The position numbers and the translations under genes are program-made. Below are positions 23,959 to 41,294 of a stretch of 64,000 bases of DNA, in pieces (the first letter of the stretch is position 1; each line of letters opens with the position of its first letter). The stretch covers positions 1,674,001-1,738,000 of the forward strand of contig NC_020891.1 of assembly GCF_000355695.1 (NCBI RefSeq), written 5' to 3'. Source of the stretch: Clavibacter nebraskensis NCPPB 2581. Lineage in GTDB: Bacteria > Actinomycetota > Actinomycetes > Actinomycetales > Microbacteriaceae. The notes under the pieces are model-generated. The model saw only the letters and a list, made by a program, of their open reading frames with translations. It did no database searches and was not told the DNA's origin.

Positions 23959-25416
23959 ATGGCCACCCCCTCCACCCCGTCCGCCACCCTGGACGCGGCC
24001 GCCGCGACCGGCACGGCCGACGACGCCGCGACGGGTGAGGCGAAGGCACCCGCGAAGCGCGCGCCCGCCAAGAAGGCCGCAGCGCCGAAGACCACCGGGA
24101 CCGCCAAGGCCCCGACGAAGGCCGCCGCCGCCAAGGCCGCCGCCGCCGCCGACGACGACGCCGTGGCCGAGGACGCGCCCGCCGCTCCCGCCAAGGCGCC
24201 CACCGCCCGGGCCAAGGCCGCCGCCGCCAAGAAGGCCGCCGCGGCGTCGGGTGACGCCGCGCCCGCCAAGGCGCCGCGCAAGACCGCCGCGAAGAAGACC
24301 GCCGCCGCCGACTCCGGCGAGCCGTCCGACGACGACGCCGAGGAGGTCGTGGTCCCGGTCGCCGAGGAGGACACCGACGACGAGGTCGTCGAGGACGGCG
24401 CGGCCAAGGCACCCGTCGTGCTCGAGCCGCTCCCCACCGGGGCCATGGTGCTGTCGAACAAGGAGGAGGACGAGGACGTCCCCGTCTACTCGACGACCAT
24501 CACCGGCGCCACGGCGGACCCCGTCAAGGACTACCTCAAGCAGATCGGCAAGGTCGCGCTGCTCAACGCCGCTGAGGAGGTCGAGCTCGCCATGCGCATC
24601 GAGGCGGGCCTGTTCGCCGAGGACAAGCTGGCGAACACCCCCGGCATCTCCCGCGAGCTCGAGCGCGAGCTGCGCTGGGTCGCGCGCGACGGCCAGCGCG
24701 CCAAGAGCCACCTGCTCGGCGCGAACCTCCGCCTCGTGGTCAGCCTGGCGAAGCGCTACACGGGTCGAGGGATGCAGTTCCTCGACCTCATCCAGGAGGG
24801 CAACCTCGGCCTCATCCGCGCGGTCGAGAAGTTCGACTACACCAAGGGCTTCAAGTTCTCCACGTACGCCACGTGGTGGATCCGCCAGGCCCTCACGCGC
24901 GCCATGGCCGACCAGGCCCGCACTATCCGCATCCCGGTGCACATGGTCGAGGTCATCAACAAGCTGGCCCGCGTGCAGCGCCAGATGCTCCAGGACCTGG
25001 GCCGCGAGCCCACGCCCGAGGAGCTCTCGCGCGAGCTCGACATGACGCCCGAGAAGGTCATCGAGGTCCAGAAGTACGGCCGCGAGCCCATCTCGCTGCA
25101 CACCCCCCTCGGCGAGGACGGCGACAGCGAGTTCGGCGACCTCATCGAGGACACCGAGGCGGTCGTCCCGGCCGACGCGGTGGGCTTCACCATGCTGCAG
25201 AAGCAGCTGGAGTCGCTCCTCGACTCGCTGTCCGAGCGTGAGGCCGGCGTGATCCGCATGCGCTTCGGCCTCGGAGACGGCATGCCGAAGACGCTCGACC
25301 AGATCGGCGACACGTTCGGCGTCACGCGCGAGCGGATCCGCCAGATCGAGTCGAAGACCATGGCCAAGCTCCGCCACCCGTCGCGTTCGCAGTCGCTGCG
25401 CGACTACCTCGAGTAG
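23959..25416 (+). CDS. rpoD: Primary sigma factor RpoD/SigA
   Basis: Housekeeping sigma-70 factor, 485 aa. The first ~150 residues are a low-complexity Ala/Lys/Pro and acidic extension usual in actinobacteria. Then come region 1.2 ([12 protein letters not shown]), region 2 with [20 protein letters not shown] and [12 protein letters not shown] for -10 melting, region 3, and region 4 with the -35 helix-turn-helix [20 protein letters not shown]. Start ATG 23959 follows GAAAGG; an in-frame ATG at 23863 is possible but has no ribosome site. The murT gene begins only 3 nt after its stop. Confidence 0.95.
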
Positions 25417-25419
25417 GCC

Positions 25420-26700
25420 GTGCCCCTGCGCCTCGCCGTCGCCGCGGGACGGGCCGCCCGCTGGGCCGCCCGTCTCCGCGGCGGCGGCTCCGCCGTGCCC
25501 GGCGTCGTCGCCCTCCGCATCGACCCCCGCTTCCTCGAGCGCACGATCGCCGACCTGCCGCACGGCGTGGTCGCGGTCACCGGCTCAAACGGCAAGTCGA
25601 CCACCACCCACATGCTCACCGCCGTCCTCCGTGCGCACGGCTTCCGCGTATTCACGAACCCGTCGGGCGGCAACCTGCCACAGGGCATCGCGTCCGCGGT
25701 GCTCGCGGACGCCGACGCGTCGGGTCGGCTGGACGCCGACGTCGCCGTGCTGGAGATCGACGAGGCCTACGGCGTCGCGCTCTCCGCGCTGCTGACGCCG
25801 CGCACGGTCCTGCTGCTCAACATCCAGATCGACCAGCTCAACCGGTTCCACGAGCCGGACCGCGTGGTCGGCATGTTGGAGCGGATCGCCGACACGGCGA
25901 CCGAGGCCGTCGTCGCCAACCGGGACGACGCGCACGTCAACGCCATCGCCGCGCACACCGCGCGTGCAGGTCGCGCCGCCGTGGACTGGTTCGGCGTGTC
26001 CGAGGAGCTCCTCGGCGACAGCAAGCACGGACTGGCGTCCGCCCCCCGGTTCGGCTCCGAGGACCCCGACACGGTGCACGTGGCCGCGGGCGTCGAGGCC
26101 GTGGCGCTCTCCGGCCGTGACGCCGTGTTCCGCCTGGCGTCCGGGGACCTCCCCGTGACGCTCCCGTCGCGCGGCCTGCACTACGCCGTCGACGCCGCGG
26201 GTGCGCTGGCGACCGCGCGCCGGGTGCTCGGCGACCGCTTCGACCCGGCGCGTGCCGCGACGGGTCTCGGCTCCGTCGCCGCCGTCTACGGGCGCGGCGA
26301 GATGCTGCGCGCGGGCGACGAGGACATCGAGATCATCATGATGAAGAACCCGGCCAGCCTGCAGATGAACCTCGACGCGCTGGGCGATCCGCCCGAGCAG
26401 GTGCTGCTCGCCGTCGACGACGGCACGCCCGACCCCTCGTGGATCTACGACACCGACCTCTCCGCGCTCACGCACGCCGACGTCGTCTCCGGCACGAAGG
26501 GCTACCAGCTGGCCGTGCGCTTCGGATACGAGGGCCTCGAGGTCGGCCGGGTCGAGCCCGACCTGCGTCGAGCCGTGCAGGCGTTCCTCGCCCTGGAGAA
26601 GCCGTCCCGCGGCGTCAAGACCATGATCGTGAACTACGAGCAGATGATGGCGATCCGTCGCATCCTCGGCTACACGGATCTCGAGGGAGGACCCGCGTGA
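25420..26700 (+). CDS. murT: MurT-like Mur ligase (lipid II isoglutaminyl synthase subunit), no zinc ribbon
   Basis: 426 aa Mur ligase with C-terminal DUF1727 domain. MurT normally activates the alpha-carboxyl of D-Glu in lipid II for amidation with GatD. Seen: P-loop VTGSNGKSTTT (53-63), ATP/metal motif LEIDEAYG, LNIQIDQLNRF, and in the C-domain SWIYDTDL with the Asp usual there. Well-studied MurT proteins carry a Cys4 zinc ribbon in the middle domain; here that stretch is shortened and the whole protein has no cysteine. Start is GTG 25420, 3 nt after rpoD. Its stop overlaps the gatD start (GTGA). Since GatD lacks its catalytic residues, the reaction may differ. Confidence 0.88.
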   Translation: MPLRLAVAAGRAARWAARLRGGGSAVPGVVALRIDPRFLERTIADLPHGVVAVTGSNGKSTTTHMLTAVLRAHGFRVFTNPSGGNLPQGIASAVLADADASGRLDADVAVLEIDEAYGVALSALLTPRTVLLLNIQIDQLNRFHEPDRVVGMLERIADTATEAVVANRDDAHVNAIAAHTARAGRAAVDWFGVSEELLGDSKHGLASAPRFGSEDPDTVHVAAGVEAVALSGRDAVFRLASGDLPVTLPSRGLHYAVDAAGALATARRVLGDRFDPARAATGLGSVAAVYGRGEMLRAGDEDIEIIMMKNPASLQMNLDALGDPPEQVLLAVDDGTPDPSWIYDTDLSALTHADVVSGTKGYQLAVRFGYEGLEVGRVEPDLRRAVQAFLALEKPSRGVKTMIVNYEQMMAIRRILGYTDLEGGPA

Positions 26701-27431
26701 GCGACGCGCTGCGCATCCTGCACCTCTACCCCGAGGAGCTCGGCATCAACGGCGACCGCGGCAACGTGACCGTGCTGGTCGAGCGCGCGCGCATCCGCGG
26801 GATCCGCACGGAGGTCGTCCGGCACGCGCCGGGCGGCGGCGACCCGAGTGACGCCGACCTGGTCGTGGTGGGATCCGGGCCGCTCACGGCGCAGCGCGCC
26901 GTCCTGCCCGACCTCGTCGCGCACGCCCCGCGCCTCGTCGCGCTCCGCGAGGCCGGCGTGCCGATCCTCGCGGTGGGCGGCGGCCTGCAGCTGCTCGGGG
27001 AGTCCGTGCGCCTGGTCGACGGCGGCGAGCTCGTGGGCGCCGGCGTCCTGCCGGTCCGCACCATCCTGACGGCCGAGCGACGCGTCGGCGACCTGGTGCT
27101 CGACACGCCGGAGGGGGAGGTCGTCGGCTACGAGAACCACGGGTCGACCCTCGACATCGGCGAGCACGCGCCCCTCGGGACGGTACGGGCCGGCTTCGGC
27201 AACGGCGGCCAGGGCGGGGGCGAGGGCGTGCGCGTCGGCGCCTCCATCGGCACCCACCTCGGCGGCCCCGTGCTCGCGCTCAATCCGCAGCTCGCGGACG
27301 AGCTGCTGGCGTCGTCGCTCGCACGGCACGGCCGAGAGCTGCCCGCGGACATCTCGGGCACGCTGGAGCGGCTCGACGGCTGGGCGCGCGAGGCGCGCGC
27401 GACCGTGATGGCCCGACCCGCGCACTACTGA
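26697..27431 (+). CDS. gatD: GatD-like glutamine amidotransferase, catalytic residues lost
   Basis: 244 aa class I (triad) amidotransferase fold, partner of MurT. Normally GatD frees ammonia from glutamine with a Cys nucleophile in a CGG(Y/F)Q motif and a His in YLHGP. Here the nucleophile elbow reads ILAVGGGLQLLG with Gly94 at the Cys place, and the His segment reads GTHLGGPVLALNP with Gly189 at the His place. These are the same residue numbers as Cys94 and His189 of the S. aureus enzyme. The rest of the fold (YPEELGINGDRGN, VVGYENHGS, NPQLADELL) is kept. Start GTG 26697 overlaps murT, so a stable complex is expected, but no glutaminase activity. Confidence 0.88.
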   Translation: MSDALRILHLYPEELGINGDRGNVTVLVERARIRGIRTEVVRHAPGGGDPSDADLVVVGSGPLTAQRAVLPDLVAHAPRLVALREAGVPILAVGGGLQLLGESVRLVDGGELVGAGVLPVRTILTAERRVGDLVLDTPEGEVVGYENHGSTLDIGEHAPLGTVRAGFGNGGQGGGEGVRVGASIGTHLGGPVLALNPQLADELLASSLARHGRELPADISGTLERLDGWAREARATVMARPAHY

Positions 27432-27467: not shown

Positions 27468-27502
27468 CGAAGGGCGCATCCCCACAGGGGATGCGCCCTT
27501 CG
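27468..27502. terminator. Hairpin between gatD and the DUF7455 gene
   Basis: Perfect 16-bp stem (27468-27483 with 27487-27502) and a 3-nt loop between convergent genes. Confidence 0.85.
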
Positions 27503-27925: not shown

Positions 27926-27975
27926 CGATGTCGGCTCGCGTCCCGCGAATGCCGGACGCACATGGAGGACAGCAC

Positions 27976-30054
<2,079 letters not shown>

Positions 30055-38480: not shown

Positions 38481-41294
<2,814 letters not shown>

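Follow-up and report, generated by a model that had tools for sequence, protein, structure and literature searches.

A MurT/GatD pair lacking the glutaminase nucleophile

The closest described relatives of the gene pair reported here are the MurT/GatD isoglutaminyl synthases of Staphylococcus aureus (6gs2), Streptococcus pneumoniae (6fqb) and Streptococcus pyogenes (9sq9). GatD Cys94 and His189 together with MurT Asp349 (S. aureus numbering) have been described as forming a putative triad shared by the two subunits (PMC6113224), and the substitution C94G in S. aureus GatD is reported to abolish lipid II amidation (PMC6085368). The window analyzed in this study is a stretch of 64,000 nucleotides (nt) from Clavibacter nebraskensis NCPPB 2581 (family Microbacteriaceae; contig NC_020891.1, positions 1,674,001 to 1,738,000). 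It encodes a MurT and a GatD, and the GatD lacks both of its catalytic residues. Hereafter, MurT*/GatD* denotes the Cys-less Microbacteriaceae clade that includes this pair, canonical denotes pairs with intact Cys94 and His189, and H-type denotes a distant Cys-less kind. Judging from sequence comparisons, MurT*/GatD* probably works as an ATP-dependent amide ligase and adds the initial bridge amino acid to the alpha-carboxyl of D-glutamate (D-Glu) in B-type peptidoglycan.

All the window features described below lie on the forward strand. The murT* gene (25420-26700, GTG start) encodes a Mur-ligase-family subunit of 426 amino acids with the Pfam domains Mur_ligase_M and MurT_C and an AlphaFold predicted local distance difference test score (pLDDT) of 90.2. 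The gatD* gene (26697-27431) encodes a class I glutamine amidotransferase (GATase)-like subunit of 244 amino acids (Pfam GATase_3; pLDDT 95.2), and its GTG start and the murT* stop share 4 nt. The class I glutaminase fold is present in GatD* according to the Pfam assignment, the predicted structure and matches to GatD entries of the Protein Data Bank (PDB), including the solved S. aureus GatD 5n9m (E = 2e-26). In the comparison with S. aureus GatD, codons 94 (26976-26978) and 189 (27261-27263) are both GGC, and Gly thus replaces the nucleophile Cys94 as well as His189. An earlier sequence-only reading of this DNA had claimed the two glycines, the 4-nt overlap and the retention of the MurT P-loop; all three claims were borne out, and its residue numbering proved exact against 5n9m.

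The window MurT has the Mur fold and the residues for ATP activation. Its P-loop GSNGKSTT (25582-25605) has Ser in place of Thr56, as in 73/73 aligned MurT* rows, and keeps Lys59, while the equivalents of Glu108 and of Asp349, the third triad residue, are residue 112 and Asp338 (26431-26433). The conserved gate arginine (Arg133 in S. aureus, which aligns with Arg135 in S. pneumoniae) is replaced by Ile137 (25828-25830), and the loop VDDGTPDP (26413-26436) is three residues short of the canonical GatD-facing D-x-x-A-D-G-R-D loop. Because the window MurT contains no Cys, it has no zinc ribbon. Scores against the NCBIfam equivalogs were far below the cut-offs for both MurT (107 against 800 bits) and GatD (109/77 against 450/400 bits), although this test is a weak one. 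Searches of the window genome found a single MurT and a single GatD.

The family sample consisted of 199 Microbacteriaceae genomes, of which 154 matched the window GatD in a single-protein search that overlooked some members. GatD was read in 91 loci, among which the window is present twice (L001 and L002); it is counted once in the counts of 72 and twice in the counts of 73 given below. MurT was present in 91/91 loci, which split into 15 canonical, 73 MurT*/GatD* and three H-type loci. In a tree of 85 rows (quick search, no bootstrap; six rows omitted, namely the duplicate window row and five close relatives), the MurT* rows formed one clade of 67 with a Shimodaira-Hasegawa-like approximate likelihood ratio test (SH-aLRT) value of 100.

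None of the 72 GatD* rows has Cys94; the position is occupied by Gly (46), Ala (19), Ser (5), Thr (1) or Asn (1). Position 189 is His in 44 rows, followed by Gly (11), Gln (8), Lys (3), Asn (2), Glu (1) and Ser (1), with gaps in two, while Arg128 is kept in 69/72 and Asp19 in 64/72. Nine further families of the order supplied an outgroup of 50 loci, two of which end before GatD; Cys94 was present in all 48 readable outgroup GatDs and His189 in 46, with the other two gapped. Loss of Cys is the rule of the clade, and the combined loss of Cys and His is seen in the genus of the window and in some further genera. The simplest reading of these sequences would be that Cys was lost once and never regained and that His was lost patchily. 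The double loss claimed by the sequence-only reading is therefore general as regards Cys and not as regards His, and His189 loss was dropped as a clade marker.

On the MurT side, Lys59, Glu108 and Asp349 are kept in 73/73 MurT* rows, all of which also carry the three-residue deletion in the GatD-facing loop. The gate Arg is found in 0/73 of these rows, in contrast to 15/15 canonical rows of the family, 49/49 readable outgroup rows and 15/15 H-type rows. Compared with the isoglutaminyl synthases, MurT*/GatD* shares the Mur ATP site, the GATase fold and Asp349, whereas the clade is without Cys94 and the gate Arg and has the shortened loop; the window pair is without His189 as well.

The ratio of nonsynonymous to synonymous substitution rates (dN/dS) was 0.11-0.30 for GatD* and 0.03-0.11 for MurT* in 10 pairs from five genera, in line with the selection on the complex that the sequence-only reading had assumed. 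Intact Cys in close relatives, which that reading had named as a possible sign of sequence error or random decay, was not seen: Gly94 was found in 4/4 genomes of the window's genus and in 78/78 readable named loci. The latter came from the best 80 of 439 named relatives, every one a MurT* carrier and two ending before GatD, and include Microbacterium, Labedella, Salinibacterium, Humibacter, Agreia, Frondihabitans, Lacisediminihabitans and Curtobacterium. The tree and the dN/dS values support the view that MurT*/GatD* is one old clade under purifying selection. When 297 genomes of the order were searched with a MurT* profile, 13 scored at least 533 bits, all of them from Microbacteriaceae, and the best score elsewhere was 399 bits; this supports confinement of MurT*/GatD* to this family within the sample.

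Replacement of the pair at the sigA-parE slot

The window pair lies between sigA (23959-25416), which encodes the principal sigma factor and whose predicted start is the ATG of the conserved N-terminus, and a gene for a parE/gyrB-type topoisomerase subunit (27928-30054). This position is widely shared. MurT* is adjoined by sigA in 66/73 loci, 35 of which hold both sigA and parE inside the short locus, and sigA adjoins the pair in all of the best 80 named loci. The three H-type loci of the first set all have sigA as a neighbor and two have parE too, and neither gene was found beside the canonical pair in 15/15 loci. Among the 14 genomes with canonical pairs only, GatD was read in nine and the sigA-parE slot in four; the border genes in 4/4 of these slots are separated by 700 bp or less, leaving no room for a ligase pair.

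Thirty-six family genomes have none of the MurT-GatD kinds named here, and their sigA-parE slot was read in 16. Twelve of these slots contain a CofE-like gene (~232 amino acids) directly after sigA, which itself was within the stretch in 11/12. Two slots are empty and one has other content, and in a thirteenth genome with such a gene (G084) the CofE-like gene lies 0.7 kb outside the stretch taken, which contains the ATP-grasp gene. An ATP-grasp gene (PF14397, E = 1e-44) adjoins CofE in 10/12 slots. The CofE-like loci (L167:3153-4899 and slots L168-L177, L180 and L316-L325) mostly carry this gene, sometimes in two copies. The slot gene belongs to the family of the F420 gamma-glutamyl ligase CofE/FbiB (PF01996, E = 3e-13), which is not homologous to MurT and performs the same kind of reaction as the one proposed for MurT*/GatD*. 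It is not a known CofE, because its score against the F420 CofE equivalog is far below the cut-off (34.9 against 180.65 bits).

A probable third kind of occupant is the H-type pair (15 rows from 12 genomes; L075, L082, L091, L151-L161 and L165). H-type GatD has His at 94, in most loci within the motif THNALEVLG, and Ile or Leu at 189, and the Asp349 site of H-type MurT is Asn in 14/15 rows and Met in 1/15. Therefore, all three triad residues are gone. H-type MurT has zinc-ribbon-like cysteines, and an ATP-grasp gene stands beside the pair, within the short loci, in 7/12 genomes.

By ligase content, the 199 family genomes comprised 130 with MurT* (one, G099, as fragments only, and four with a canonical pair in addition), 14 with canonical pairs only, four with canonical zinc-ribbon pairs (GatD read in two), 12 with H-type pairs, three with other Cys-less pairs, 27 with a strong CofE match (above 360 bits) and nine with none of these ligases. 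A Cys-less pair of some kind or CofE was thus present in 172/199. The MurT* class was set by the MurT profile score, with GatD read in the 72 rows described above. PF08353 alone overlooks many MurT*, and MurT* absence rests on the profile searches and the slots read; the genome profile search first scores part of the candidates only, so that carriers may have been overlooked.

MurT* and strong CofE occurred together in 0/199 family genomes, and in nine genera some species carry the one and some the other. The exchange is clearest in the genus of genome G106, which we infer to be Microbacterium; 14 of the 15 best named matches of its MurT* are from Microbacterium, with 81-86% identity. Of 149 genomes of this genus, 28 have MurT* and 120 have CofE (matches of E = 1e-60 or better for each of the two), none has both and one (G611) has neither. 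CofE directly follows sigA in 10/10 loci read. The ATP-grasp partner was found in 119/120 CofE genomes and 0/28 MurT* genomes; the sole CofE genome without it (G527) contains no more than a fragment of CofE, its assembly being broken. Because the two modules replace each other at one place and 148/149 genomes have exactly one of them, they appear to be two solutions to one essential task. Within a single genus, the locus offers two non-homologous, mutually replacing sets of candidate bridge genes.

Proposed function in B-type peptidoglycan

For decades, taxonomists have treated group B peptidoglycan, in which the cross-link runs via the D-Glu alpha-carboxyl, as a hallmark, and independent B-type lineages outside Actinobacteria include Erysipelothrix and Acetobacterium. 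Among the papers listed in searches of open-licence literature, we found none naming an enzyme that makes the D-Glu-bridge bond of this peptidoglycan, none joining MurT-GatD with Microbacteriaceae or CofE with Microbacterium peptidoglycan, and no relevant one on ATP-grasp ligases in Microbacterium peptidoglycan. Sources for B-type walls in Microbacteriaceae include PMC9603630 and PMC5882085. B-type walls are reported for Rhodoluna, Lacisediminihabitans, Salinibacterium and Frondihabitans, and the wall diamino acid of Microbacterium is reported as D-ornithine, L-Lys or diaminobutyrate. A link of MurT* to D-ornithine in Microbacterium was considered and dropped, as no correspondence could be established between the named MurT* species and the published L-Lys/D-ornithine clusters.

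In B-type walls the bridge is described as carried by the D-Glu alpha-carboxyl (PMC9603630). Because this carboxyl, which MurT activates, also carries the bridge, MurT*/GatD* is a candidate for the first-bridge ligase. Like other Mur ligases, MurT* would activate its substrate as an acyl phosphate, here at the alpha-carboxyl of the D-Glu that occupies position 2 of the peptidoglycan precursor. An incoming amino acid, attacking with its amino group, would then serve as nucleophile instead of ammonia. A comparable attack of an amino acid's amino group on an acyl phosphate is described for CofE, the mechanism of which its authors call strongly similar to that of MurD (PMC10861534). The amino acid in the window organism would most likely be D-diaminobutyrate, and the B-type interpeptide bridge would start with the resulting amide bond. 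GatD* may be a pseudo-glutaminase retained for the shape of the complex, perhaps with its former glutamine pocket accommodating the amino acid. We infer the substrate and the product; the role given to GatD* is a guess.

Among Mur ligases, the window protein is nearer to MurT in sequence than to MurC-MurF and differs from the latter in having the GatD* partner; the addition of an amino acid is suggested by the slot exchange. Carbamoyl phosphate synthetase I is an ammonia-dependent enzyme with a dead glutaminase domain. As in MurT*/GatD*, the glutaminase Cys is lost and the domain is kept, but ammonia is the nucleophile there whereas an amino acid is proposed here. If the proposal is true, MurT*/GatD* would clearly exemplify the conversion of an amidotransferase into an amino-acid ligase whose glutaminase survives as a dead partner.

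There is about an even chance that the whole sigA-parE slot is an exchangeable B-type bridge cassette with three solutions that are unrelated or diverged long ago, being filled by MurT*/GatD* alone, by a second Cys-less MurT/GatD often accompanied by ATP-grasp, or by a CofE-like gene with ATP-grasp. MurT*/GatD* would then add one diamino acid and the two-enzyme modules two residues (e.g. Gly plus Lys or Orn). This division into one-residue bridges by MurT* and two-residue bridges by two-enzyme modules is our guess from lists of peptidoglycan types.

Several observations weigh against a bridge ligase or against a clean exchange of modules. First, Asp349 is invariant in MurT* and His189 is kept in most GatD* rows, and part of the old site may still be used. 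Second, amidated D-Glu in the muropeptides of this strain, which the sequence-only reading had named as evidence against its own proposal, has a partial counterpart: D-Glu amidation or hydroxylation is listed among the muropeptide modifications of Clavibacter michiganensis (PMC9603630). If this amide is real and enzymatic, some C. michiganensis enzyme still makes it. Third, 18/199 family genomes have Cys-type pairs only (14 canonical and four zinc-ribbon) and 9/199 have none of the ligases; if any of them is B-type, another enzyme must exist. Fourth, the separation of the modules is imperfect at its margins. Weaker CofE matches (130-158 bits) occur in G053, G123 and the MurT* genome G147, an ATP-grasp gene was not found in two of the 12 CofE slots read (L168 and L173), and one stands beside a MurT* locus (L089). 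Finally, the hypergeometric chance of zero overlap (genus, 1.9e-29; family, 6.6e-15) carries no correction for relatedness. The claim of the sequence-only reading that an amino acid replaces ammonia is thus partly supported: it gains from the one-for-one exchange with CofE-like plus ATP-grasp modules and loses from the listed amidation and the Cys-type-only genomes.

The listed amidation would be explained directly if MurT*/GatD* still amidated D-Glu with free ammonia, GatD* serving as a scaffold and D-isoglutamine being the product. The retention of Asp349 and of the MurT active site, and the single MurT and single GatD of the window genome, also fit this. However, the gate arginine and residues of the GatD-adjacent loop have been lost, the bridge occupies the same carboxyl in B-type walls, and four MurT* genomes additionally have a canonical Cys-containing pair. 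The slot also swaps with a CofE-like ligase, from a family with amino-acid nucleophiles. Because the replacement is of this kind, amino-acid addition is favored, and we regard amidation by free ammonia as unlikely.

It is similarly improbable that the pair adds a side substituent rather than the bridge to D-Glu, such as the glycine found on D-Glu in Micrococcus luteus, or acts on another glutamyl substrate. The amino acid is not readable from sequence, and the slot exchange would fit any amino-acid ligase. On the other hand, members of Microbacteriaceae are reported to use the D-Glu carboxyl for the bridge, and the presence of one of the two modules in nearly every genome of one genus is as expected of a bridge enzyme. 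The last alternative, that GatD is drifting to decay in a pair of little function or that its unusual residues are sequencing errors, would suit the variability of residue 94 and the greater one of residue 189 but was dropped as highly improbable in view of the purifying dN/dS, the constant presence of MurT beside GatD, the uniform Gly94 of the window's genus and the readable named loci, and the confident prediction of the GatD fold.

Other loci and neighboring features

The four genomes with a canonical Cys-containing pair and MurT*/GatD* carry them at L026/L032, L039/L038, L058/L018 and L057/L017. The other Cys-less MurT/GatD pairs are of two kinds (L162/L163 and L164), with the GatD motifs FGTSxALFA and FNNALDILG; L162 and L163 are also near a CofE-like gene (36-37% identity). 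Two database records stood out by their names. L257, recorded as Planococcus sp. APC 4015, has a Microbacterium-like sigA-murT*-gatD*-parE locus and is probably a mislabelled or contaminated assembly. L253, recorded as Frigoribacterium sp. JB110, resembles Microbacterium halotolerans (L251) in its GatD* motifs and is possibly misnamed.

In the window, a perfect inverted repeat, terminator-like as judged by eye only, lies just 3' of gatD* (27468-27502). Farther downstream is an aconitase-like gene (38595-41271), whose plasmid matches, with ~80% DNA identity, are annotated as acnA.
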